In this document: positions 3,610 through 55,922 of the stretch, one piece after another
How positions within the stretch are numbered: position 1 is the first letter of the stretch
Layout: every line of letters starts with the position of its first letter
From: a virus
Strand: one strand, 5' to 3'
Length of the DNA stretch: 64,000 nt
Virus record (IMG/VR): IMGVR_UViG_3300025073_000028
Span: 1 to 64,000 of that record
Position numbers and translations under genes: made by a program
The notes under the pieces: generated by a model
Seen by the model: only the letters and a program-made list of their open reading frames with translations
Databases searched by the model: none
Told to the model about the DNA's origin: nothing

Positions 3610-5859
3610 TTAGTTTTTTGATTTAAAAATACCCTTTTCTACCATTAGCTGATGGAACCTATCTGCTTTGATAGAATTGGTCTTCTGTAAGCGCTTATAT
3701 TTCTTTAACGCTTCCTGTGCTTCACTATCACCGTCGTCTTTTATTTCCTGTTTATCTTCTACTTTAGGTACTGAGGGAACAGTATCTTTAATAGGAGAAT
3801 CTTCGGGTTTAATTTCAGGAGGAGTTTCTTGGTTCAGCTTTTTCTGAATTTCATTAACAGAAACCTTTTTTCTCAAATCGTTAATACTGTCTTTTAAGGA
3901 TTCCATTGTACGTTCTTCAAAAGTTTTCATAAGTTCCACCTGATCTTTTACCGATTCAGGACCTTCTGCAATAGCCTTTAGTTGAATTAACGAATCAACA
4001 AGGAGGGTCTTGTTTTCTTTGTTTAATTCTTCTAGTTCCATTCCGAGGCTATCATGTAAATAATTTAACACTTTTATATGTTGTTGTAAAGTTAAACATT
4101 CCTGACAGGGTTCATTTGCTTTAATTAAACCTTCGGTCTTGAGGGAGTCAATCAGAATCATTTTCTGTTCCTGGGTTAAAATTGGCATAGTATCCTGTTT
4201 GGTTTCTTCTTTCGGAATTATAACCTTATCTTCACTCTTATCACAACCCATTTGTTTGGCTTTTCTATTAACACAGGCTAAAATTGCTTCTTTAGAGCCA
4301 GGACCTTTATATCTCCCAATTAGACGTCTGGCCGCAACGATATGCTGACAGTCAGAGCATGGGAAACTTCTATTGGGACCACAGAAGCTCTTTGAATTCA
4401 ACTTCTTACGTTGTTCGGCTGATAACTTTGCGTCTTCAGAATATAGATCCTTGTCTTTTAAACTATCGAATAATCCTGCCTGAATCAGTTCTTTTTTAAA
4501 GACATCCCAACCTTTTTCTGGATCTGTCAAGTCCATAATATCAGTTTCGCCATATTTCTTTATAAAAAAGTCTTCTATCGAAGTAAGAATAAGATCTGCA
4601 ATTTCGACTCCATCTTTTTGAGGAAGGGCATTTAAATATTCTTTACATTCTTTTTCTTCGTCTTTGGTGGGATAAAATTCAGCTAAAACATCCTCTATAA
4701 TTTGGGTGGCATTTTCTCCATCAACTAAAAGCTTAGGAGTTTCATCTTTTACTTCAGCTTTAGGAGTTGTCATTTTTTCTACGGTTGTCTTCAGTAATTC
4801 AGTCATCTTATCTTCAGGAAGTTTTAAGAAATCTTTTTCTTCCATCGATGACATTTCAACTTCTAATAACTTAATTAAAGCCTGCAATATTGCACCCGGA
4901 TCTTTATCTTCGGGCTTCTCTATATTAGCAGAGATAGAAGAATAATCTTCTCCGTATAAGGTTATATAGAGAGAGCGCACTTTGTCTTGTAAGTTCATCA
5001 AATCCTCCTGTTTATCTCCTAATATAAGACTATCATTCAATTCTAATAAATCACTACCTTTTTGGCGGAAAGCTTTAAAGGAATATTCAAGCATTGGTGT
5101 TTCTTTAACAGAATCAACCAGCATTTCATCTTTAGAGACGCCAATAATTTTAGCGAATGGATTGGCTCCTTGATTTACGCAAGATATTTCATTGTAGAAA
5201 AAATCACCAGCAATTAAGAAGGCTTTTTTACCATCATAAACCGATCCGGGCTTGTGTTCACAAATTCCGTCTTCGTCCAACCAATCTTGAAAGCAAATAG
5301 AACAAATAGCTTGGTTAGTCCTTTGTGAAGAAGAGACTGGCAAATAACGTTCATCTAGTATTTTTCGGATGGCATCGGGATCGGTGATCTTGGCTTTGAC
5401 TAAAATAAAGCCCATTCCACGCCAATTGTCTTGTGTCAGATAATTTTTACTAAAATGATTAACGGCTTTTTGTAAGGATTTTCCACTGAGAGATCCATAA
5501 TTAATTGCTTCTATAACTGAATCTGTAATACCTAACCCTTTAGTCGTATCTATATATTCAGCAGATATGATTCTTCCAATTGGATCTTTAGAATCGTCAT
5601 GTCCAACTAGGATAGGAATACAATAATCTCTTTTTGCATTAGGGAGCATTGTATAAACAGAATTGCGCATTCTACTTGGCAGATATAAAGCATTATGCCA
5701 AGTTACCACCCCGGCAAACGTAGCTGCCATTTCAACGATCAATGAGTGGCCGGTTTCAGAGGTGGCATCTTTAGTTTCAAAGAAGAATCGTTTATGCGGT
5801 TCTAAATTAGAGATAGGTTTTAAAAGCACCCTATCAAAAAGCTCTAAATATTTTTCCAT
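3610..5859 (-). CDS. Prohead maturation protease fused to scaffold-like region
   Basis: 749 residues in several parts. Residues 1-250 resemble phage head-maturation proteases: VGHDDSKDPIGRIISAEYID, a zinc-type pattern CSICFQDWLDEDGICEHKPG, and a following EISCVNQGANPFAKI strand. Residues about 260-490 are acidic and helical. Near residue 500 there is a Cys-rich phage motif (SFCGPNRSFPCSDCQH followed by AARRLIGRYKG). The rest is Lys/Glu-rich coiled coil with a PEIKPEDSP linker, like a scaffold. It sits between portal and capsid genes, where protease-scaffold fusions are common. The catalytic residues cannot be fixed by eye. This enzyme is also a candidate for cutting the polyprotein described at 19655. 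Confidence 0.75.
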   Translation of the reverse strand: MEKYLELFDRVLLKPISNLEPHKRFFFETKDATSETGHSLIVEMAATFAGVVTWHNALYLPSRMRNSVYTMLPNAKRDYCIPILVGHDDSKDPIGRIISAEYIDTTKGLGITDSVIEAINYGSLSGKSLQKAVNHFSKNYLTQDNWRGMGFILVKAKITDPDAIRKILDERYLPVSSSQRTNQAICSICFQDWLDEDGICEHKPGSVYDGKKAFLIAGDFFYNEISCVNQGANPFAKIIGVSKDEMLVDSVKETPMLEYSFKAFRQKGSDLLELNDSLILGDKQEDLMNLQDKVRSLYITLYGEDYSSISANIEKPEDKDPGAILQALIKLLEVEMSSMEEKDFLKLPEDKMTELLKTTVEKMTTPKAEVKDETPKLLVDGENATQIIEDVLAEFYPTKDEEKECKEYLNALPQKDGVEIADLILTSIEDFFIKKYGETDIMDLTDPEKGWDVFKKELIQAGLFDSLKDKDLYSEDAKLSAEQRKKLNSKSFCGPNRSFPCSDCQHIVAARRLIGRYKGPGSKEAILACVNRKAKQMGCDKSEDKVIIPKEETKQDTMPILTQEQKMILIDSLKTEGLIKANEPCQECLTLQQHIKVLNYLHDSLGMELEELNKENKTLLVDSLIQLKAIAEGPESVKDQVELMKTFEERTMESLKDSINDLRKKVSVNEIQKKLNQETPPEIKPEDSPIKDTVPSVPKVEDKQEIKDDGDSEAQEALKKYKRLQKTNSIKADRFHQLMVEKGIFKSKN

Positions 5860-19070: not shown

Positions 19071-19259
19071 ATGAATGAAAATAGAGAGAGGCAAGATTCA
19101 AATTACATGGATGGAATGCTTTTAGAGAAGGATCCCATGAGTGAAAAATTCCTACGGAAAATAAAGTTTGAAATAAATTTAGAAGGGGAAGAATCTGTAA
19201 TTTTCCTATATGAAAATAAATCTGGAAATAATTTAGAAGGAGTACCCAGTGAAGTATGA
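19071..19259 (+). CDS. Small hypothetical protein upstream of the leader RNA
   Basis: 62 codons from the first ATG; internal Met codons at 19107 and 19128-19140 are alternative starts. The C-terminal part (EKFLRKIKFEINLEGEESV) looks like a normal acidic beta protein. It ends immediately before the folded leader RNA. A perfect 6-bp hairpin (ATTCCC/GGGAAT) lies just upstream of the first ATG. No ribosome binding site is strong, so coding status is moderate. Confidence 0.4.
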   Translation: MNENRERQDSNYMDGMLLEKDPMSEKFLRKIKFEINLEGEESVIFLYENKSGNNLEGVPSEV

Positions 19260-19631
19260 GGGTGAGAAACATCGGCGTTCGATGCCCACCCCCCTCTCTC
19301 CGGAAGTTTTGGGGCGCTACCGGAGAGGCATGAGAGTAACCCCACGTTTTCACCGGGAAGGGAGGGTGAGTGAGACCGTCTAGTCACTCATCTTAGGTCT
19401 TACCCCCTCTTCCTGGTGAAAAATAGGGGCTTGAGACGAACCCCGAAGAAAAAATCGTCTCATATATCTCCACTCAAGGAGGAGTGGTTGCGGATTTCTC
19501 CCTCATGATGAGCGGTGGAGAATCCGAAACAGGGCGACGTGAGCCAGAATCACGAGGCTGCCGGGAGTCCATAACCCCGGCGGGCACAAGATGCCCAAAC
19601 TTCTGGGTACCTAATGGTTCGGGGCCAGAAG
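19260..19631 (+). ncRNA. Highly structured leader RNA of the giant ORF
   Basis: About 370 GC-rich bases with at least seven strong local helices: 19260-19291; 19296-19327 (CTCTCCGG/CCGGAGAG); 19347-19422 (a long arm TTTTCACC../..GGTGAAAA with an inner GAGTGA/TCACTC hairpin); 19433-19461 (GAGACGA/TCGTCTC); 19470-19487; 19561-19596; 19600-19631 (CTTCTGG/CCAGAAG). The giant ORF can be extended in frame to 19484, but the ribosome binding site GGAGG with ATG at 19655 is far better, which leaves this block non-coding. It could be a cis-regulatory RNA or a trans-acting ornate RNA. No known riboswitch or intron core was recognised. Confidence 0.6.
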
Positions 19632-19654
19632 TCAACCCTCTTTATGGAGGAAAT

Positions 19655-22600
19655 ATGAACCAGCAATTAGTCTTAAGTAACACCCTTAAACATCACGGTC
19701 TGACCAAGACCGTGATCAACGAAGTGTGCGACGTCCTGTTCGACACCCGGGCCTCGGTCCGGAGTTGGGTCAAGGTGAAGAGAGCCATTGCGGCTCTCAA
19801 CGGGTTAAGTGTCAGCCGTGGCCACATGATAACGTTGACCAAGGCGTGCCACACCTGGAAGGATATCGAGAACGAAATCTGGTTGAGGGCTAAGGCCCAA
19901 GACCAGATCATGCGACGGCGCAGCAGGAATCCCCAGACCGGCGCGGTTATCGACATCCCGGCCTCCAAGACCGTGATCAAGGAGGTCATCCCGGCCTCCA
20001 AGATCACGAAAGAGAGCCGCTGGGTGAGGCGTCAACGACGCATCAGCAGCGTCAAGAGCACCCAGAAGATCACCAAGGTGATGAAGATGGTCGCCGCCCT
20101 CCCCACCCTCACCTGGGGGGGCGAGGTTAACCTCGCCAAGGTGACAAAGCGGTTCACCAATCCCGGCTTCGGTACCTGGACGGTGAAGAAGAGGGCCGCC
20201 CGAACCGTTCGCAATCCGCAAACCGGCGACACCGTCAAGATCAAAGAAGTCATGGATATGACTTCCATCAACCTGGAGGTCTCCGGCACTACCTTGCCCA
20301 AGATCTCTTCCAAAATCAGGGAGACCATGGCCATGGTCAAGTCCCTGACCATTGGCGTTGAGGAGAGCAAGAGTGCTCTGGTCAATGCCAAGGAAATCGC
20401 TGTCCAGGAGTTCGCCAACGCCTGGTACGACGACCTCGGCATGATCAAAGCCGAGAAGAAGGTGGTCAATCTCCGCAGGGAGATCAGGGTCAATACCCTG
20501 GCCTTGACAAAGACCAGGAAGCTCTTGATCTGCCTCCGTCAAAGGAAGACGGAAGTCAAGGGTTTGGCCCTGGCTTTCACCAAGGCTCGTCAGTCTTGGG
20601 AGAAGGCCGTCGCCAACCTCACCTTCGCCAAGAAGGTTGAGGCCAAGGCCGTGGCCAAACTTCAGGCCAATGCCAACCGCCTGGGCAGGAAGTACAACGT
20701 CACCTTCAAGCACAGCGAGAGCATTGACGCTCCCGCCAGGCTGACCGGTGGCATTGCTTACTACCGCGCCGACGCCAACGTGGCTGACCTCCTCCACGAG
20801 ATTGGCCACATCCTGCGTGGCAGCAGCGAAGTGGCTGCGGACGCTTGGATGAACTTCCGGGCAGGTGTGTCCGGATGGACCAGGCAAGGTCTGGTCGTCC
20901 GTGACCTCTCCTGGAAGAAGGCTGAAGCCTGGTACGAAGCCCATCGTAGGAATGGTAAGTATCAGGACGCAGTCCTGGCCTCCGAGGGACACCGCTCCCT
21001 GTACTTGGTGACGACCGACAGTCGCCAAGAGCAGGTTCAAAAGCGGTTGACGTTCCTCCAGAGGGAGTTGGACTTCTCTGAAGATCCAGTTGTCCTCAAA
21101 GCCGCTCAGTCGGAGATCAACATGATCGATGCTGAGTTAGATATGGAGGAATTAGACCTGTGCTCGGAAGGGCATGACGTTATCCGTGGTGGCATCTATC
21201 GCCACTTCAAGGGTAACGAATACCAGGTCCTCGGGTTTGCCGAGGGGATGTTCGGCGAATCGTATGTCGTCTACATGAAGATGTATGGCGACTATGGACG
21301 TTGGATCCGGCCCATTGACATGTGGTCGGACCGTCCCGAGGCAGCGAACGGTAGCCGGAGGTTTGAGTATCTCTACAAAGAGGAACTCAACATGTCGGCG
21401 ATTGGAATCGGACACCATAGCGAGTCGGAAGGCTCGATTACGGTGTTCGAGGGGAATGGTAAGTTATTGGTTGCGCCTCGTTTGCAGCCATTGACGAAGC
21501 CGTCCTTCAAATCCGAGGGGCATAAAGAGGACCCAATCCCGGTGGGTAACCGGGTTAACGCTCATAGGAGAATTACCATGAGCAACTTTGACATTCTGTG
21601 GGATGAGAGCTTCCGTGACTTGGCAGGCATCAACAATCCGTGGAATCGGGTTGTTAACGCCATTAAGTCGGAAGTTCCCGACGAGGAAGATCCCGACAAC
21701 AGTGAGATCCTTCACGAGGTTGAGGAAGGTAGTGAAGACGCCAACGAACAGGCGATCTTCGACGCTGCCGTCCGCGAACACCGTGGGAATCTCACCCGGC
21801 TCAACGAAGTTCTCTTCGATGAGTACGGTGTCTGTCGGGACATTCCTCGGTGTTATCCGAAGACCCGCGAACTTGGTGCCATCATTGGTACCGTCCGTGG
21901 GTTCAAGAAGTACATCGACGATGATAAGGGACGTCTTGTTGTCGTCGAATACGAGAAGGAGTTCTGGTTGTCGGACCTGAATTCCTTCGAGGGCGGAGAT
22001 GAGTCCGTCCAAGTCAAGAGGCTGAATCCCTGGCAGCACAGGGAAGCAATCTTGGGAGCGAAGACCAATGACGGTCGCCGTTTCTATGATGCCGTACTCG
22101 GCTTCAAGAAACACACCGCTTCCGAGTTGCTTAAGGTGCTGCCTTGGGCAACCAGCAAGGTCATTCAGACCAAACTGGGAGACTCACCTCTCGGTGTCCT
22201 CTGGAACGAGAAACTCACCGGGCCAGTCTTCATCGCAATGATGAAGATAATCAAAGAGAGTAACGTCTCTCTGGTCCGTGAGGTCGTGGACATCCTCTCG
22301 ATCTACCATGTCCAAATCAAACGGGCATGGTTGCATAGGATCTTCTCCGATCAGGAGATCACCGAGATCGAGAACCAGGGTAACCGTGTTGTTTTTGATG
22401 GCAACAAATATGGTTACGATCCCGACTTCCAGGAGCGCATCAATGAAATGATGCAAAACTTCCTGGAAGAGACAAACTCCAACCCACTCGAACCTTGGCA
22501 GATGCTCAAGGCTATCGACGCGGAGATCCAGTTCGGACGTTGTCTGGAAGTCCTGAACTCCTATAGTAGGAGTACTCAAGAGGACTACGGACGTGAGTTC

Positions 22601-25600
22601 GAAGTCTGGACAAATGTCGAGGATGACAAGGCCACGTATCTCCAACGTGTCTTTGTTGCGAAGGCGTTCCAATTGGCGGAAACTGCGGAGCCTACTTTGG
22701 CGAAAGTCAAGGTAGAGGATGCAGCGAAATTCATGTGCCAGTTAGGGTTGGCGCTCGATCCTATCATCGATGCGCTGGCCACTGACAAGGACGCCCCACT
22801 CGGAAACGAGTTGGCGGGGTATCTCGTGTCTGCCCTCAAGCATGGGGTGCAGTCCAACGAGAAGTACTTCCGCCGGACTCTTCGGGCGGTGCAGTCCTTC
22901 GACCTCCCCGAACTGTATAACCACATGAAGGGTTATCGGTTCCACAAGGGAGGGTTGGAATATGTCAACCGAGCTGAGGATGGTACGAGTCTCCATGCGA
23001 AAGCGTTGTGGGACGATATGTACCACCAAATGCTCGGTAGTCTCACGACTCGCCAGCTTCTCCGCTGGTTCCGGGCTCGTGACACCATGGGCCTCTACGC
23101 CTTCGTCATGACTGACGAGGTGTTGCGGTCCATTGGTGCTCTCGCTTTGCTCAACGATAGGCGTTGGGCAAAATATGAGGCGGCCCTCCACGCTGTGAAG
23201 CGGACGGAGAAGCAGGTTGACCTGATTGAGGACCTCCGGAACATCGGAGTTGCTCCTCAAACCAGGTGTGACCTGTTCCACCTGTTCGGCGGGGAGTACG
23301 CCGTCATCGCTGAGAACGTGCTCATCGCGAACGAGAAAGGTCGTTCGCCTGAGCCGCCTCACGGTGGGCTGACCGAGATGTCCGAGGAGGAATTCAACGC
23401 CTTGGCATCTATGGCCAGTGAAGGGCACGAGAATGACATCCATGTCTTTAGGGATGTCTGGATTGTTTACGGGAGTGAACATATCCATAATCGTCCCTTA
23501 AGGAGTAAGGGGTTGTCCAAGGAGGATATCGAGGAGATCGATTCTCCTTTGGACACCGTTACTCCAGGGCAACAGATTGCCTTGGTCTGGCAGAAGGGAA
23601 TAGTCCTCAACCCCTCCCTGGAACTAAGGGACTATATCCTGTCTGAGATAAAGAGGACAGATGAATATCTCTGTCCTTCTGAGACCAGAGCAACTGTAGT
23701 CTCGGCAATTTACAGTTACTATATTCCAGGGTTGACAAACGGGATATATACGACCCAAAATTTGTCCTCGGAATATATTGACTGGCTTATTGCCGAAGGA
23801 TACAATGGGAGTAATTTAGGTTGCTGGTTTAACATAGAAAAAGCCAGCAAAATAGACTCTCCCATCTCTAGGAGGAAGTATCTTGGCATCGCGAAAATGC
23901 TGAGAGAAACCTTCCATTGGGCAACAACGCCCTTGCAAGGAGAAAAAGTACTAGAGATGTCTCTTTCATTCCTTGATGACCATTTGGTTGCCTGGCAGGC
24001 AATGCAAATGTACTCGGAGCTTGAGAGGATCTTCTTGGCCGGTACATTGTTACATGCCGGTCTTCCTCTTGAAACTCTGGGAGACATCTCCAGGGTGGAG
24101 ATTCTCTCCATTAGGAATCTCATCTCTTGGGGAACGGATGGTCAACTCCCCCAAAGCGTTCTCGCTTATAAGAGAGCGCTTAACTGGAGAGACAATCCAC
24201 ATCACGTCGAAGCGTATTGGATGAATACCTTCGGGCGTGTTCCTCAGGCGAAAGCTATCATAGATGGCATTCGCGACAGGAAGGAGATTGTGGCCCTGAA
24301 ATCGAACTGGAGGTTTTTCCAATTTGGTTGGAAATCTTTGCTGGAAGACAACCAGACGGCTATCGTTGCCCGTATGTTGTCAAAATATGCTAAATACGGC
24401 AAGGAAGGAGTGGATCTCTTTCTCTCCAGAATACACGATGTCGGAGTCCAGACAATGGAAACCGAGGTGTACCTTTTGGAAAAGAAGGAAATCTTCCAGT
24501 TATACTGGAAGTTCCGCAACTGTTCCAAACTGGACTGGTTGCAACCCCTCCGGTCTTGGACTGAGGATATTCCCATTGAGGAGTATCTACTCCTCAAGAA
24601 AGAAGATCTACAGGCAGAGATCTGTAGGAAGGGGGTTGAGAACTCCTACGGGAAAGTAGTTCCAGAACTACTCCCGTTAGCGACAGAGGCTTATCAGGCT
24701 GGAGTTAGCGACTTCAATACGCTGACTCAGTACTGGTTCAATAAGTCTCCAGTCAAGAGTATCCCTTGGGTTAATGTCTCTGAAGGGACTTACACCCTGA
24801 AGACTCTTGATGTTAATGATCCCCGGGGACCATTCCTTGGTAGGTATACTGGCTGTTGTCAGAGCTACGAAGGATTTGCCTCGGAGTGTGCTATCCATGG
24901 AATGGCCAGCAAAGATGGCTGTTTCTGGGTGGTATTCAATAGCAAACGCCTTGTTGCTCAGGCGTGGGTGTGGGTATCTAACCGCATCCTTGTTATTGAT
25001 AACATCGAAGGAGCAAGTGGCGACCCCACGGTTTATGACCTCTTCAAGAGGGCAGTAAAATCCGTGAGGGCCGACGGCATCGGCGCCGTCTATTGCGGAC
25101 TCGGATACAATAAGTATTCCGAGAAGCTGCAAGAGGAGTACCAGGTCACTCGTCTCCCGGTATCGGCCCCAGTTAACTATACCGACACCGCTGAGGGTGT
25201 CGTGAAACTGGCGTCGGAGGGACACCAAGATATCAACTTCGATCTGATCGTTCGGATCGAGGAATTGGCATATCCAGAATTCATGCGATCCTACAAGGCA
25301 GAAGAGTTCAGCCTTGAAGGCATCTGTGAATATCTGGAGTGTGAACCCAGTGAGATCTTGGCTATGACAGAGGGCGATTCTGCTTATCTGCTTGGAAGCA
25401 TCCAAGGAGATGAGGCAGAGATTGCTGACCTGGCAAAAATTCCAGGATCTCCTTCCTCTTGCGTTGCTCGCTTGATCACTCGCTGTATGCGGGTACTCAA
25501 GCAGAATAATGTGAAGACTGTCACAATGGACTGTAGGAGCACTTCCTCCCCAATCGTGAAGTCATTAGTTAATCGTATGGGGTTGACCATGACTGAAGAG

Positions 25601-28600
25601 ACTTGGGATTGGGAGGGTGAAGAAATGACTGAAATCACCGTCTCAATGGCCAGTGAAGGTCATGACGAAGACTTTGGGGTTGACCTTGGTGATGTGGAAG
25701 TTTTGCTTCAAGACCTTTGGTCTGTCAAAGCAAAGACTCTCCTCATCGGAGGAGCAGTCATTGACCGCATCCAAGGTCGACAGATCAAGGATTGGGACAT
25801 TGAGGTCTATGGACTTTCAATGAAACAACTCCAAGATTACCTGGAAGAATGGGGATATAAGGCAGATATGGTTGGTGCTGCCTTTGGAATTATTAAGGTC
25901 AAAGTCGGGACTACTGACATAGATCTTAATGTTCCTCGACTGGAGAATCGTTGTGGTGTAGGCCACAAAGGTTTCCAAGTTGAGTTACTCCCCAATCTTA
26001 CTCCTGAAGAAGCGGGGAAGAGAAGGGATCTTACAATTAACTCTATGTATGTAAATTTGCATACCGGAGAAGTTGTAGATCACTTCGGTGGAATGAAGGA
26101 TTTGAATGAAGGGATTTTGCGCGCCACTTGCGCAGAAACTTTCATTGAAGATCCATTGCGCGTTTTGCGCATCATGCAACTTCTGCCTCGTAAAGGTAAG
26201 AAGGTAGCCTCTGAGACCATCGAGTTATGTCGCTCGATGCAATCAGAATATCCTACCCTGCCTAAGGAGAGGATCTTTGAAGAGTTCAAGAAACTCCTAC
26301 TGAAAGCTAATAAGCCTTCTATGGGATTAGAATTCCTCAAGGATTGTGGTTGGATTAAGTGGTTCTTGGCTCTGGAAGCCTTGATCGGTTGCCAGCAAAA
26401 TCCTGAGCACCATCCTGAGGGTGATGCTTGGGTCCATACCTTGATGGTATTGGATAATGCGGCAATTCTCAAGGATCAAGTACCAGAGCCCTGGAAGCTT
26501 GCTTACATGTTTGGAGCTATGCTTCATGACGTAGGTAAACCACAGACCACTGATCGCGAAACTTTGACGGCATACGGGCATGACCAAGTAGGTATACCTA
26601 TTGCTCGTCAATTCATGGAATCTATGACCAATGAAGTCGATCTTATTAATAAGGTTGAACTCATTGTTGGAAATCATATGATGCCCGGTCAATTCCACCA
26701 ATCAGGGGCAGGAGTTGCAGCTTGGCGTCGTCTCCACAATAGAATCCGCTTGGATGTTATTGGATTAATGTCTAAGGCAGATTCTTGCGGCCGGAAAGGT
26801 TATTCCTTAAACGATCCACATATTCCTTCTCAAATGGCATTTGGCTATTTCGAATCGTTCGGAGAAGGGAAAATCGAGCCTATCTTAATGGGTAGACACT
26901 TAGTCTCTAGGGGATATAAGCAAGGAAAAGAAATGGGCTTAATCCTCAAGAGGGCTTATGAGCATCAGATTGAAACCGGCGAAACTGATGTAAATAAGTT
27001 ATTTAATGCTGGCATCTCACTCAATTCGGAGGGACATCAGATTAGTAAGATAATTGAACAACTCAATAAACATGGATTGTTTATTGGAGATGAACATCCT
27101 AATACTCCAACTCCTCCCGAACAGGCCAATGTTAAGTATTGGGCTTTGTGTATGTATACTCACCTACGAAATACTAGATATTATTGGTTCCCTATTTGTG
27201 AGGGCCAAAAAGAATCTTGCCTAGAAGATCAGGTAAAAGCCCTTACAGATAAAGATATACCACTCTACAAAATTCTAGTGCTTTTAGAAAAGGACATTTA
27301 CGTTGACTTAACCACCAGCAACCTCGAACAAAAGGACTTCTTTGGACACTGGAGGCACAAAGATCTAGGACATAATCCAATGGTAAGAAATAAGAATTCA
27401 TACTATATAGGAATGAAAAAGGATAAGGAAAAAGGCCGACTCCCAAAAGACTTCCCTCTCATAAGGACCTTCCATATTAAATGGGCGGCCTCTATATTGA
27501 ATAGTTTCTCTCCTCTTAGTTTTAAAGAACTACTGCAAGTTTCCTGTCGGACACAGAAGCCGTTTAAGGATTGCTATGTAGCAATGTGGGACCTCGACTA
27601 TCCTACGGACTTATTGAAAGTCCCAGCGGGTTATGCTCGGTGGTTAATAGATACAGTAGCTCTAAGGGATTCTCTTTATGCAAGCAACAAGATGCCTTTT
27701 GGAAAACACGCTCCTAAGAACATAGAGAAGTTGCGGTTTTTACCCATTCCTAGCATAGATATCCCGTCTGAAGCTCTTAATAGTAGACATGATTACTATG
27801 TATGGCTTCTAACTAATTCTACTAGATACTACGACCTTTCATCAGATTACTCTTTGCTTACTCCCCGTGAGATAAGAGCTACTGTTATAGGGCTAAAGGT
27901 TATTTCTAGCAAGACTGCATACAAACAATTCTGCAATGAAGTCTTGCATGTTAAAGCAATCCCATCTATGAAAAAGATGGATATGCTAATAAGGTTTATT
28001 AAAGATGGTGCTCAACTCTTAAATGACGATATTCCTGGTACTCGCAGATACAATGGATCTCCCGTCAGAATATTAGAAACGGCAATCTGGAATCATCAGC
28101 GTGCAATAGAGAACGATCTCTCTACAAATATTCCAATGCCCAATGAAGTTATGCCATGTAATAAGACCCTGCCTCCAAGTTGGGAAGATCTTAGGATCAA
28201 GACAAAATTAGACATGGTAAAGATAGGATCCGAGATGCGTCATTGTTTAGGAAGTTACAAAGACTCGCGCGACTTATTTTTCCGCAAAGGAACTGTCTGC
28301 GCGCAAGTGAGTGTCCAGACAGGCAAGGTAGTTCAGTGTTTTGACATGAGCAATCGGATCACTTCTGCTTCTAAAGACTTTGCTCAACAACTGAAGAAGG
28401 TCAAGAAATATATAGTAGACCCTAACACTCCTCAAATAAAAGATAAGATCGACGAAGATGAAGATTTTTTGGACGAAGACTTTTACTCGGAGGGACATAT
28501 GGATTCTACTTTAGATCAAGAGATTTTTGAAGCTTGGACAGAGTGGAGCCGCTCTCGTAATTACCATGGCTCAGAAGGATTGAGTCCCGAAGAAATTCTT

Positions 28601-29437
28601 GCACTCAAGCAAGAACTTAACAAGTTAGGGGAAAACGACCCCATAACTATAGATATGGCAAGATCTCTTGCTGATGACTATGGCTTTAGGGTGAGGATCA
28701 ATTCATACCTAACCCTTTGCGATGGAGCTTATAACCCTGCCATGAGAACAATTGACTTGGCAACTGACCCAACCAAGAGAATTCTCTTCCATGAGGTTGG
28801 ACATCATTTAGATAGATTGGCCAACCATTATTGGAGGCAAGACTTTACAACAGATTCAGAAACGCCAGAATCTGTAGGCATACTGGAACTAATAGCAGAA
28901 ATGTGGGCAGTAGCTATGTGTCAACGATATACAGATGAAAGTAAAATATATCAAACAGCTTTATGGAGAAACTACAACGTAATCCGACACTATAAAGTTA
29001 GAGGAAAGTTAATGGTTTTACCTCCTTTTGTAAATGTTAAACCCCAATGGGATAGAGTAAAAGATTTATTGGTAAGTGCAAAGAAGCAGCACATAACAGT
29101 ATTTATGGCCGCCAAGATTCTTAATGAAATGGATTATAACAATATTCTAAAGCAAACAAGTACCAGTACCGATACAGAATATAATGCCGCTCCGTCACCG
29201 CACCCTTCCTCCCGCTCCGTAACCTCTCCTCGGTTCTCGTTCAACCGCTCCTCACTCGCTGGCGCTCGCTCGTCGCTATCCTACACCTATAGGGCTGAGA
29301 CTCTACCTATTCGCTCCGTATCCAACCCTACAAAAAAGAAAAGTAGCAAAACTCAAAAAGAGAAACCAGCGCTCGCTCGCTGGCGCTCGCTCGCTGAAAA
29401 AGTAAAAGCTCTCCTCGGTTATTCGTCTTTGACATAA
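19655..29437 (+). CDS. Giant modular polyprotein with eight SEGH junctions, including a CCA-adding enzyme
   Basis: About 3260 residues from the ATG with GGAGG upstream. S-E-G-H occurs at residues 443, 504, 620, 1255, 1854, 2000, 2458 and 2945, dividing the chain into modules. 1-444: HU/IHF-like arm segments (RNPQTG at 91 and 186, GFGTWTVKKRAAR at 171), a helical stretch, zincin HEIGH at 381. 506-620: DUF1653 (YRHFKGNEY...WIRPIDMW). 622-1254: unknown helical module. 1257-1853: unknown, ending in a TGCCQSYEG...AQAWVWV domain. 1856-1999: GNAT-like (LLGSIQGDEAEIADLA). 2002-2457: tRNA nucleotidyltransferase with GGAVIDR at 2032, KDWDIEVYG at 2045, RRDLTINSMY, EDPLRVLRIMQ and HD at 2291. 2460-2944: PcfJ-like (MRHCLGSY, His at 2863). 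2947-3260: second zincin HEVGH at 3046 and a basic low-complexity tail. Synonymous codon variety at the SEGH sites shows protein-level conservation; cleavage after Glu is inferred. Confidence 0.85.
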   Translation: MNQQLVLSNTLKHHGLTKTVINEVCDVLFDTRASVRSWVKVKRAIAALNGLSVSRGHMITLTKACHTWKDIENEIWLRAKAQDQIMRRRSRNPQTGAVIDIPASKTVIKEVIPASKITKESRWVRRQRRISSVKSTQKITKVMKMVAALPTLTWGGEVNLAKVTKRFTNPGFGTWTVKKRAARTVRNPQTGDTVKIKEVMDMTSINLEVSGTTLPKISSKIRETMAMVKSLTIGVEESKSALVNAKEIAVQEFANAWYDDLGMIKAEKKVVNLRREIRVNTLALTKTRKLLICLRQRKTEVKGLALAFTKARQSWEKAVANLTFAKKVEAKAVAKLQANANRLGRKYNVTFKHSESIDAPARLTGGIAYYRADANVADLLHEIGHILRGSSEVAADAWMNFRAGVSGWTRQGLVVRDLSWKKAEAWYEAHRRNGKYQDAVLASEGHRSLYLVTTDSRQEQVQKRLTFLQRELDFSEDPVVLKAAQSEINMIDAELDMEELDLCSEGHDVIRGGIYRHFKGNEYQVLGFAEGMFGESYVVYMKMYGDYGRWIRPIDMWSDRPEAANGSRRFEYLYKEELNMSAIGIGHHSESEGSITVFEGNGKLLVAPRLQPLTKPSFKSEGHKEDPIPVGNRVNAHRRITMSNFDILWDESFRDLAGINNPWNRVVNAIKSEVPDEEDPDNSEILHEVEEGSEDANEQAIFDAAVREHRGNLTRLNEVLFDEYGVCRDIPRCYPKTRELGAIIGTVRGFKKYIDDDKGRLVVVEYEKEFWLSDLNSFEGGDESVQVKRLNPWQHREAILGAKTNDGRRFYDAVLGFKKHTASELLKVLPWATSKVIQTKLGDSPLGVLWNEKLTGPVFIAMMKIIKESNVSLVREVVDILSIYHVQIKRAWLHRIFSDQEITEIENQGNRVVFDGNKYGYDPDFQERINEMMQNFLEETNSNPLEPWQMLKAIDAEIQFGRCLEVLNSYSRSTQEDYGREFEVWTNVEDDKATYLQRVFVAKAFQLAETAEPTLAKVKVEDAAKFMCQLGLALDPIIDALATDKDAPLGNELAGYLVSALKHGVQSNEKYFRRTLRAVQSFDLPELYNHMKGYRFHKGGLEYVNRAEDGTSLHAKALWDDMYHQMLGSLTTRQLLRWFRARDTMGLYAFVMTDEVLRSIGALALLNDRRWAKYEAALHAVKRTEKQVDLIEDLRNIGVAPQTRCDLFHLFGGEYAVIAENVLIANEKGRSPEPPHGGLTEMSEEEFNALASMASEGHENDIHVFRDVWIVYGSEHIHNRPLRSKGLSKEDIEEIDSPLDTVTPGQQIALVWQKGIVLNPSLELRDYILSEIKRTDEYLCPSETRATVVSAIYSYYIPGLTNGIYTTQNLSSEYIDWLIAEGYNGSNLGCWFNIEKASKIDSPISRRKYLGIAKMLRETFHWATTPLQGEKVLEMSLSFLDDHLVAWQAMQMYSELERIFLAGTLLHAGLPLETLGDISRVEILSIRNLISWGTDGQLPQSVLAYKRALNWRDNPHHVEAYWMNTFGRVPQAKAIIDGIRDRKEIVALKSNWRFFQFGWKSLLEDNQTAIVARMLSKYAKYGKEGVDLFLSRIHDVGVQTMETEVYLLEKKEIFQLYWKFRNCSKLDWLQPLRSWTEDIPIEEYLLLKKEDLQAEICRKGVENSYGKVVPELLPLATEAYQAGVSDFNTLTQYWFNKSPVKSIPWVNVSEGTYTLKTLDVNDPRGPFLGRYTGCCQSYEGFASECAIHGMASKDGCFWVVFNSKRLVAQAWVWVSNRILVIDNIEGASGDPTVYDLFKRAVKSVRADGIGAVYCGLGYNKYSEKLQEEYQVTRLPVSAPVNYTDTAEGVVKLASEGHQDINFDLIVRIEELAYPEFMRSYKAEEFSLEGICEYLECEPSEILAMTEGDSAYLLGSIQGDEAEIADLAKIPGSPSSCVARLITRCMRVLKQNNVKTVTMDCRSTSSPIVKSLVNRMGLTMTEETWDWEGEEMTEITVSMASEGHDEDFGVDLGDVEVLLQDLWSVKAKTLLIGGAVIDRIQGRQIKDWDIEVYGLSMKQLQDYLEEWGYKADMVGAAFGIIKVKVGTTDIDLNVPRLENRCGVGHKGFQVELLPNLTPEEAGKRRDLTINSMYVNLHTGEVVDHFGGMKDLNEGILRATCAETFIEDPLRVLRIMQLLPRKGKKVASETIELCRSMQSEYPTLPKERIFEEFKKLLLKANKPSMGLEFLKDCGWIKWFLALEALIGCQQNPEHHPEGDAWVHTLMVLDNAAILKDQVPEPWKLAYMFGAMLHDVGKPQTTDRETLTAYGHDQVGIPIARQFMESMTNEVDLINKVELIVGNHMMPGQFHQSGAGVAAWRRLHNRIRLDVIGLMSKADSCGRKGYSLNDPHIPSQMAFGYFESFGEGKIEPILMGRHLVSRGYKQGKEMGLILKRAYEHQIETGETDVNKLFNAGISLNSEGHQISKIIEQLNKHGLFIGDEHPNTPTPPEQANVKYWALCMYTHLRNTRYYWFPICEGQKESCLEDQVKALTDKDIPLYKILVLLEKDIYVDLTTSNLEQKDFFGHWRHKDLGHNPMVRNKNSYYIGMKKDKEKGRLPKDFPLIRTFHIKWAASILNSFSPLSFKELLQVSCRTQKPFKDCYVAMWDLDYPTDLLKVPAGYARWLIDTVALRDSLYASNKMPFGKHAPKNIEKLRFLPIPSIDIPSEALNSRHDYYVWLLTNSTRYYDLSSDYSLLTPREIRATVIGLKVISSKTAYKQFCNEVLHVKAIPSMKKMDMLIRFIKDGAQLLNDDIPGTRRYNGSPVRILETAIWNHQRAIENDLSTNIPMPNEVMPCNKTLPPSWEDLRIKTKLDMVKIGSEMRHCLGSYKDSRDLFFRKGTVCAQVSVQTGKVVQCFDMSNRITSASKDFAQQLKKVKKYIVDPNTPQIKDKIDEDEDFLDEDFYSEGHMDSTLDQEIFEAWTEWSRSRNYHGSEGLSPEEILALKQELNKLGENDPITIDMARSLADDYGFRVRINSYLTLCDGAYNPAMRTIDLATDPTKRILFHEVGHHLDRLANHYWRQDFTTDSETPESVGILELIAEMWAVAMCQRYTDESKIYQTALWRNYNVIRHYKVRGKLMVLPPFVNVKPQWDRVKDLLVSAKKQHITVFMAAKILNEMDYNNILKQTSTSTDTEYNAAPSPHPSSRSVTSPRFSFNRSSLAGARSSLSYTYRAETLPIRSVSNPTKKKSSKTQKEKPALARWRSLAEKVKALLGYSSLT
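21564..21580 (+). promoter_or_regulatory. Internal ribosome binding site within the giant ORF
   Basis: ATAGGAG lies 7 bases before an in-frame ATG (21578, Met642), shortly after the third SEGH site. It could allow separate translation of module 4 onward, or be a relic of gene fusion. Confidence 0.45.
28487..28501 (+). promoter_or_regulatory. SEGH codons doubling as ribosome binding site before the last module
   Basis: The last SEGH is encoded by TCGGAGGGACAT directly followed by ATG (Met2949). The GGAGG is correctly spaced for initiation, so the C-terminal zincin module could also be made alone. Confidence 0.4.
29369..29396 (+). repeat. Tandem GC-rich 14-mer inside the giant ORF tail
   Basis: GCGCTCGCTCGCTG is repeated twice head to tail; a related CTCGCTGGCGCTCGCTCG copy occurs near 29255. 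It encodes the ALARWRSLAEK region of the basic tail. It stands out from the AT-rich surroundings. Confidence 0.6.
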
Positions 29438-39110: not shown

Positions 39111-39190
39111 GCCCGAATGGGAGGAATGGTATCTCCAGGGTTAAAATATCCTGGCTAATGAGCCTATCGGTTCAAACCCGACTTCGGGCA
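39111..39190 (+). tRNA. tRNA-Leu-like, diverged copy of 38916
   Basis: Same acceptor GCCCGAA/TTCGGGC, TTAAAAT still present, but the anticodon helix CCAGG/CCTGG competes with the D-stem and gives an irregular loop. Probably a duplicated and decaying tRNA-Leu(UAA), or one with altered folding. Confidence 0.7.
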
Positions 39191-39198
39191 TAAAAAAT

Positions 39199-39269
39199 GG
39201 CATCATAGCTCAAAGGAGAGAGCCTCTGGTGTCTACCAGAAGATCTAAGTATGAATCTTAGTGATGCCG
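39199..39269 (+). tRNA. tRNA-like gene, possible Asp(GUC), six-base anticodon loop
   Basis: Acceptor GGCATCA/TGATGCC as in 39014; D-arm GCTC/GAGC; anticodon stem TCTGG/CCAGA encloses only TGTCTA (GUC if U33 is the first base); T-arm CTAAG-TATGAAT-CTTAG lacks the usual TTC. Diverged copy in the duplicated pair. Confidence 0.65.
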
Positions 39270-39290
39270 TCTTCAAAAAAAAGGAAATAC

Positions 39291-54406: not shown

Positions 54407-54654
54407 ACAGTCCAACAATTGATCATCGGAAATTATTCCAAAAAGGAGATAAGGTATTACTAACAGATAGTACTGTTTATTCATGTTCTTCTAACCGTGA
54501 AAAACATTATGGCAAAAGTGATTTAAAAGCCAATGAAATATATACAGTAAATGCCGTATATGAGTGGGGGGTATATTTACTAAGTGGTAAAAATATTTCT
54601 AGATGGCAATACTTTTATTATCAACTTCAAAAACTACAAAAAGAAATACTGTAA
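54403..54654 (+). CDS. FKIGD-family small protein, copy 4
   Basis: 83 residues: KLFQKGDKVLLTDSTVYSCS ... WQYFYYQLQKLQKEIL. ATGA overlap. Related to the copies at 38.4-40.4 kb. Confidence 0.6.
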   Translation: MNSPTIDHRKLFQKGDKVLLTDSTVYSCSSNREKHYGKSDLKANEIYTVNAVYEWGVYLLSGKNISRWQYFYYQLQKLQKEIL

Positions 54655-54665
54655 AGGAGAAAATT

Positions 54666-55922
54666 ATGTATTCGGCAATAGTTGTAGCCTTAAGAAATGT
54701 AAGACCTCACCCAAACGCTGATAAATTACAATTAGCTACAGTTTGTGGCGAAACTATTATTTTTGCTAATGCAAAAGAAGGAGATTTAGGTGTTTACTTT
54801 GGTCCTGATGGACAACTTTCGCATGAAATGTGTCTTATTAATAAATTATACCGCAAAGATCCTACCACAGGTGAACCGATGGGAGGATTTTTCGAGGACA
54901 ATAGAAGAGTCAGAGCCCTAACCCTACGAGGCGAAAAAAGTAATGGCTATTGGACTAAAATAGAATCTTTATTTTGGACAGGAAAAACAGATTTTGATGA
55001 AGGAGATTTAATTGATACTGTCAACGGTAAATTGATTTGTCAAAAGTATTATACTCCTGCCACTCTGCAAAGAATGAGTGGCCCAACCAACAAAAAGAAA
55101 AACAAGAAAAAGTTTTCTTACGAAATGTTAAAAGAACATTTCGAAACAACTCACCTTCAAAAGAATTTACATTCTTTGAAAGAAGGACAAGTCATTGTAA
55201 TTAGCGAGAAATTGCACGGAACCAGCGCAAGGACCGGATATATCAAGATTAATAAACCCTCTTGGGGGACAAAAATTCTTGAGAAATTTGACTTATCTTA
55301 TTCCAAATGGGAATATATTTCTGGAACACGTAGAACCATATTAAATCCAGAAGGAACAGGATATTATGGATCTAATCAATTTCGCCAAGATTGGCATAAC
55401 AAAATTAAAACAGCAGGGCTAAGAAAAGGAGAGATCCTTTATTACGAAATCGTAGGCTATTTGCCTAACGGAAAGGCCATTCAAGGACCTATTACAATAA
55501 AACCAAAAGATAAATCTTTATTCCCTGATTATGTCCATTTACAAGCAATGCCATTTCATTATGGTTGTCCTAATCAAACATGCGAAGCATATATCTATCG
55601 TATTGTTCAGGTAACTCCAGATGATAAAGAAATAGAATTAAATTGGCCTCAAGTCAAACAGCGTTGCCAAGAACTTGGTCTTAAACCAGTACCAGAACTC
55701 GAAACTTTTGTTTTGACACAAAATTCTATTGATTCTTTGGTAAAACGTTGTGAAACCCATTGCCAAACACCTTCGATATTAACTCCTCTTCATATTAAAG
55801 AGGGAGTATGCTTAAGAGTCGAAGAAAGAAATATCCTTAAGTATAAGTCATTTGAGTTTAATGTATTAGAAGGAAGAGCTAAAGAATCAGCTGACTATGT
55901 AGATACAGAAGAGGTATCTTAA
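54666..55922 (+). CDS. RNA ligase with N-terminal OB-like domain
   Basis: 418 residues; ATG with AAGGAG. Nucleotidyltransferase motif I is SEKLHGTSARTG (Lys near residue 182, KxHGTS form), followed by GTRRTI, YYEIVGYLPNGKAI (motif IV-like EIVG) and a C-terminal EGVCLRVE with KYKS (motif V). The N-terminal 100 residues (HPNADKLQLATVCG) resemble the OB-fold tRNA-binding type seen in the Deinococcus-type RNA ligase family. Likely seals broken tRNAs, working with the kinase at 48902. Confidence 0.85.
   Translation: MYSAIVVALRNVRPHPNADKLQLATVCGETIIFANAKEGDLGVYFGPDGQLSHEMCLINKLYRKDPTTGEPMGGFFEDNRRVRALTLRGEKSNGYWTKIESLFWTGKTDFDEGDLIDTVNGKLICQKYYTPATLQRMSGPTNKKKNKKKFSYEMLKEHFETTHLQKNLHSLKEGQVIVISEKLHGTSARTGYIKINKPSWGTKILEKFDLSYSKWEYISGTRRTILNPEGTGYYGSNQFRQDWHNKIKTAGLRKGEILYYEIVGYLPNGKAIQGPITIKPKDKSLFPDYVHLQAMPFHYGCPNQTCEAYIYRIVQVTPDDKEIELNWPQVKQRCQELGLKPVPELETFVLTQNSIDSLVKRCETHCQTPSILTPLHIKEGVCLRVEERNILKYKSFEFNVLEGRAKESADYVDTEEVS

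Follow-up and report, generated by a model that had tools for sequence, protein, structure and literature searches.

The 64,000-nt stretch of viral DNA analysed here (hereafter the window) carries, immediately upstream of its largest gene, a short region so rich in predicted RNA structure that the first-pass annotation proposed that it may control translation or be a separate RNA. The question raised by this locus is what the region is, where its structure ends, and what such structure could be for. A single energy model, at 37°C and with pseudoknots left out, was used to predict secondary structure, and every structural statement made below is a prediction from one sequence.

The region (19260-19654, + strand) directly abuts at its 5' edge the stop codon of a 62-aa ORF (19071-19259, + strand), and its 3' edge is the ATG at 19655, which opens a gene of 3260 codons (19655-29437, + strand; a 9.8-kb message). 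The 62-aa ORF has a phage-like codon score of +0.09 (the two remaining forward frames score -1.2 to -1.4), and its GC content by codon position is 0.45/0.23/0.26; it gave no Pfam match and has no excess structure. An extension of the large gene into the region, from GTG 19484 or ATG 19505, was rejected by codon-position composition and codon score. Over the region, the frame of 19484 has a GC content of 0.58/0.64/0.46 by codon position, against a third-position GC (GC3) of 0.81 at the 5' end of the gene, and a codon score of -0.54, against +0.38 and +0.24 in the adjoining coding sequence. The region was therefore treated as a structured, non-coding leader of the mRNA of the large gene. It matched no family of Rfam 15 (best score 26.7 bits, for a miRNA model, against a cut-off of 80), and an Rfam scan of the 64-kb window returned tRNAs only; an independent ncRNA or a riboswitch was rejected for want of an Rfam match. 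No second copy of the leader was found elsewhere in the record. Upstream, no sigma-70-type promoter was found on the + strand, and a T4-late-like box was represented by a single one-mismatch match, of a kind that occurs 119 times across the window.

Folding of positions 19255-19655 gave -171.8 kcal/mol, compared with -137.6 +/- 6.0 kcal/mol in dinucleotide shuffles (z -5.7; none of 100 shuffles was as good), and the leader taken as one 395-nt window gave -171 kcal/mol and a z of -5.5. The antisense strand of the same region has a z of -4.6, and the DNA upstream is unstructured, with z about 0 up to around 19250. Seven or more strong helices had been claimed for 370 bases here, and at least ten high-probability helices are predicted in the leader, all on the + strand. 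From the 5' end, they begin with a stacked hairpin of 6 bp and 5 bp at 19260-19291 (mean pair probability 0.93-0.97) and a 12-bp hairpin at 19295-19328 (0.93). The two-level arm that had been placed at 19347-19422 is predicted at exactly that position, with 19 bp (19347-19366/19404-19422) and then 8 bp (19370-19377/19396-19403) inside a 4-bp clamp (19340-19343/19426-19429), so that the whole clamped arm spans 19340-19429 (mean pair probability 0.90-0.98). It is followed by an 8-bp hairpin at 19432-19462 (0.96), a partly populated hairpin at 19470-19487, hairpins at 19491-19526 (10 bp and 4 bp, about 0.8), 19533-19559 (8 bp, 0.96), 19560-19581 (8 bp, 0.96) and 19582-19596 (5 bp, 0.94), and a hairpin of 9 bp and 3 bp at 19599-19632, whose outer stem has a mean pair probability of 0.92.

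The start of the gene is itself covered in the predicted fold. The Shine-Dalgarno sequence GGAGG lies at 19646-19650, four bases 5' of ATG 19655, and in the ensemble of 19260-19900 it is paired with a probability of 0.89-0.99, mostly with CCCUC at 19636-19640. The hairpin CCCUCUUUAUGGAGG (19636-19650, + strand; -5.5 kcal/mol alone) accounts for 0.72 of this. An alternative partner for the anti-Shine-Dalgarno lies at 19479-19490. The hairpin at 19470-19487 (CCACTC-AAGGAG-GAGTGG), which presents a Shine-Dalgarno-like loop, has pair probabilities of about 0.5-0.9 and competes with the pairing 19479-19490/19633-19643. The segment CAACCCTCTTT (19633-19643) either forms 11 bp with the Shine-Dalgarno-like 19479-19490 (probability 0.18) or, through its CCCTC, pairs with the true Shine-Dalgarno (probability 0.72), and the two states are mutually exclusive. 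With such an alternative anti-Shine-Dalgarno partner, the start could be switchable.

Extension of the analysis beyond the start codon revealed that the leader is not the main object, as the same predicted structure runs without a break into the first ~7.1 kb of the gene. In 18 consecutive 395-nt coding windows (19655-26764), z ranges from -3.6 to -10.1, and 13 of them are at or below the -5.5 of the leader. The signal then ends, with z -1.6 at 26765-27159 and 0.1 at 27160, and since the strong 395-nt values stop at 26765-27160, the structured zone was defined as 19260 to ~26770 (+ strand; mean z -6.8 over 19 windows of 395 nt, leader included). The leader makes up about 5% of this 7.5-kb stretch and is not its peak: when the 64-kb window was scanned in 200-nt windows, 30 of the top 35 by structure began at 20201-26001, and z among them went as low as -8.5. 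The kilobase 21600-22599 reaches a z of -14.8, and its centroid structure lies within 5 kcal/mol of the minimum free energy. The 3' part of the gene (27026-29437, + strand) is without excess structure, its 395-nt z values being +0.4 to -3.0. Within the window the effect is strong in this gene only, the major capsid gene (732-2078, - strand) being a distant second (Stouffer -4.4, synonymous shuffles). Of the two roles first proposed for the leader, control of translation stays plausible given the paired Shine-Dalgarno, while the separate RNA does not agree with the lack of an Rfam family, the lack of any break between leader and gene, and the excess structure 7 kb into the coding sequence.

The contribution of codon usage was assessed using synonymous shuffles that change neither the protein nor the dinucleotides and keep the codon usage within each block. 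The mean z was -2.83 for 36 windows of 201 nt in 19655-27026, compared with -0.23 in 27026-29437; 185 windows taken from 80 other ORFs gave a mean of -0.55. For three 2.4-kb pieces of the zone, the same shuffles gave z of -12.0, -19.2 and -11.1, and controls subjected to the same test (lambda J and H, ME3 gp37, rpoB, rpoC and two other segments of the same genome) gave -0.6 to -5.6, with E. coli rpoB and rpoC at about -5 and the 3' end of the large gene at -1.6. Codon or amino-acid effects cannot explain the structure, because the leader is non-coding and yet equally structured, and for the same reason a single force acting on the RNA is the simplest cause for leader and gene together. GC alone is not the cause either. 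The GC3 of the gene is 0.81 over its first 1.2 kb and declines to 0.36-0.41 toward the 3' end (0.23-0.31 in five other large genes), and at 25.7-26.4 kb the structure is still strong at a GC3 of 0.41. By z, the sense strand is more extreme than the antisense strand in 30 of 36 windows (binomial p 7e-5). This bias points to RNA rather than DNA, although only modestly because GU pairs are not enriched; they are slightly under-represented. A message predicted to be folded as tightly as an RNA-virus genome would not be expected of a DNA phage, and it suggests that selection acts on the RNA itself and not on the protein alone.

As a yardstick, the ssRNA genome of phage MS2 was analysed under identical settings. 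The mean z of 395-nt windows is -6.81 for the zone and -5.43 for MS2, corresponding to an excess stability per 395 nt of -37 and -32 kcal/mol, respectively. T7 has a mean z of -0.90, and contig L004, whose terminase is 37% identical, one of -0.59. Three further 20-kb stretches of the virus's own genome, sampled every 790 nt, gave mean z of -0.5 to -1.3, and the effect is absent from 27-29.4 kb and from the sampled windows of 64-124 kb. A kilobase of MS2 has a z of -8.3, against -14.8 at 21600-22599. The zone is also compact. The maximum ladder distances of its pieces are 121, 137 and 148, against 230-250 in dinucleotide shuffles (z -2.2 to -3.0), and those of MS2 are 116 and 124 against about 226 (z -3.0), whereas the values of T7 and L004 exceed those of their shuffles. 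The compactness of the zone is weaker when the controls are synonymous shuffles (z -2.6, -1.2 and -1.9). Compactness of this kind in RNA viruses has been linked to packaging pressure (PMC4154850).

The product of the gene contains matches to HU-like segments, DUF1653, a GNAT-like domain, a CCA-adding enzyme and a PcfJ-like domain, together with two HExxH motifs. It also carries eight copies of the motif SEGH, in each of which a hydrophobic residue (L, M or F) stands two positions ahead of the S, and within the window these were found in this gene only. They are encoded on the + strand at 20981-20992, 21164-21175, 21512-21523, 23417-23428, 25214-25225, 25652-25663, 27026-27037 and 28487-28498, and the seventh lies near the 3' end of the structured zone. 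A DNA repeat was rejected because the codons of the motif vary, which makes SEGH a protein-level site. As the sites flank complete domains (the CCA enzyme domain, residues 2027-2438, sits between the sites at 2000 and 2458), the gene probably encodes a polyprotein that is cut at SEGH. No Peptidase_S78 was found in the genome, and a search for S77 was uninformative, as its control was silent. Two HU-arm-like 'RNPQTG' segments were observed in the N-terminal module (19655-20250), where they form an odd mosaic with 22 residues (127-148) that match the ATP synthase gamma N-terminus. At the 3' end of the gene, a near-perfect 22-base direct repeat, CTCGCTCGCTGGCGCTCGCTCG, is present within 29251-29393.

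Homologues of leader and gene were sought in phages, plasmids, IMG/VR (where the queries were the terminase, the entire gene and three of its pieces) and GTDB genomes, and the searches returned the same virus only. This sole relative is a 190-kb record, identical over 22 kb, with 100% identity in the leader. That one sequence occurs in two records speaks against an assembly error, although the records may stem from related samples. Beyond the same virus, a search with a 16-mer of the leader gave only short, chance-like matches. By terminase, L004 is the nearest of the other phages; its DNA gives no match to the polyprotein gene. The source of the best CCA-enzyme match (H13/L012) was rejected as a phage relative, being a bacterial-looking contig.

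Taken together, the reading that we favour, tentatively and with a probability of roughly 0.4, is that the locus produces a long, compact, nuclease-resistant mRNA ('armour') whose start would be throttled by the Shine-Dalgarno hairpin. This reading draws on computed features, namely how far the structure extends, how strong and compact it is, its bias to the sense strand, the gradient in codons and the predicted occlusion of the Shine-Dalgarno. Selection at synonymous sites would have given an RNA that is folded nearly everywhere into stable, branched, compact local domains, and the leader would be the 5' end of a 7.5-kb ordered stretch spanning itself and about the first seven modules. Paired RNA would leave few single-stranded sites for endonucleases and RNA-targeting defences, and the message may thus persist until its 3260 codons have been transcribed and translated as a single unit. 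The 5' part is made first and would have to last longest, which would fit both the GC3 gradient from 0.81 to 0.36 and the loss of structure at the 3' end. Initiation would be throttled at the leader, where a hairpin is predicted to hold the Shine-Dalgarno. We infer the nuclease protection, the argument from residence time and the throttle. Several points speak against this reading: the effect is strong in this gene only, the end of the zone near the module junction at 27026 could mark a late fusion rather than a time gradient, and the throttle alone could be the selected trait, given that in E. coli structure across the ORF correlates with low translation (rho -0.75) and is the best predictor of low efficiency (PMC5318159).

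The last point leads to the main rival, a pure translation throttle or folding pacer, in which a low and even flow of ribosomes would let the modules fold and be cut in sequence, with survival of the RNA not selected. The E. coli relationship, the occluded Shine-Dalgarno in the predicted fold and the eight SEGH sites that separate domains such as the CCA enzyme are all consistent with it. We nevertheless regard it as unlikely, as a weak start site would achieve the same far more cheaply, the window data have no clear dip or peak of structure at the SEGH sites, and the last two modules are unstructured.

It is improbable that the leader alone is the regulator, as a bistable Shine-Dalgarno switch or a separate small RNA, with the structure of the gene unrelated to it. 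The two exclusive pairings of 19633-19643, with the Shine-Dalgarno-like 19479-19490 or with the true Shine-Dalgarno, would suit such a switch, but the leader belongs to no Rfam family, is no more structured than the gene, is not separated from it by any boundary, and has no relative in which a conserved switch could be seen. Packaging of the RNA into the virion or an RNP, with selection for compactness as in the genomes of RNA phages, is also given a low probability. Stability and maximum ladder distance do match those of MS2, with T7 and L004 behaving in the opposite way, and the polyprotein begins with basic, HU-like segments that might bind nucleic acid. The compactness, however, is weaker against synonymous shuffles and may follow automatically from strong local pairing; a narrow literature search found no known case in tailed phages, and no RNA replicase was found, though the control of that search was also silent. 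In a related and slightly less probable version, the 7.5-kb RNA would be a compact functional object in its own right, with the shape of an RNA-phage genome. It would be packaged, delivered or maintained as an RNP while also encoding the polyprotein; a reverse transcriptase is encoded in the same genome. Recent acquisition of the gene from a GC-rich donor, with structure as a by-product, would agree with a GC3 that falls from 0.81 to 0.36 where other large genes have 0.23-0.31, but it is very improbable and largely refuted by z of -11 to -19 against shuffles preserving composition, dinucleotides and codon usage, by the mean z of -0.9 and -0.6 in the GC-rich controls lambda (0.57) and L004 (0.52), and by the strong structure at 25.7-26.4 kb despite its GC3 of 0.41.

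Several other features of the genome were recorded. A T4-type RNA ligase gene is located at 54603-55922 of the window (phrog_968, E 2e-59); alongside the tRNAs and the CCA-adding module, this suggests a set of genes for RNA repair, and ligase and CCA-adding module would fit a virus whose RNA is attacked. Two irregular tRNA-like genes with odd anticodons (aaaa, tc) and high structure z lie beside normal tRNAs at 39111-39271. The reverse transcriptase ORF (L007:3601-4755; 67601-68755 of the virus's own record) encodes 261 aa (RVT_1, E 1e-14), with RT types II-A and III-A as the best PADLOC models and a YVDN motif in place of the usual YxDD. Long self-complementary stretches (3715-3756, 3851-3967), as in retron RNA, occur in the 370 bases that precede the ORF, and no template repeat was found near it. 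Near the reverse transcriptase, there is also a multi-copy family of small proteins that resemble Lcl_C (Pfam PF07603, with scores below the cut-off; L007:6771, 11160 and 12353; L008:483, 1297 and 5404; window 54053), whose genes have the first ~200 bases and a short 3' part in common and differ in the middle, so that the family looks diversified.

If the mRNA is as ordered as predicted, then one message in a tailed DNA phage separates gene-wide RNA order from having an RNA genome. It would be a natural 'superfolded' long mRNA, presumably still translated, and its purpose becomes testable as nuclease or defence resistance, translation control, or packaging. In the open-access literature, RNA order as strong as this across a gene is known for viruses whose genome is RNA, and reports in closed journals could exist.

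Like MS2, the locus has kilobases of coding RNA far stabler than shuffles, with compact branching and an effect of equal size. Unlike the genomes of RNA viruses, it is carried by a dsDNA tailed phage with capsid, portal and terminase genes, and the effect is restricted to the leader and some three quarters of the gene. Studies of selection for folded coding sequences (PMC6544989; PMC7063772) put the affected ORFs at about 2-3% and DNA viruses as the least affected viruses, and for dsDNA viruses values near zero beyond the start region have been reported (PMC3072339); in the zone, z is -11 to -19 per 2.4 kb. Like the ORF-wide structures of E. coli operons (PMC5318159), the predicted fold treats the ORF as a structural unit that possibly sets the translation rate, but it is stronger than that of rpoB and rpoC (z about -5), takes in a long leader, and ends within the ORF, close to a module junction. 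With riboswitches and ribosomal-protein leaders it shares an anti-Shine-Dalgarno hairpin and an alternative anti-Shine-Dalgarno partner; it differs in having no Rfam match and no evidence for a ligand, and in structure that continues past the start codon. At the protein level, the SEGH sites resemble the cutting of SPN3US head proteins by the prohead protease at the motif AXE (PMC10052503), in that they are repeated, have a Glu before the presumed cut and lie between complete domains. Unlike SPN3US, the site reads (L/M/F)-x-S-E-G-H, occurs within the window in the polyprotein gene only, and is found in a genome in which Peptidase_S78 was not detected.
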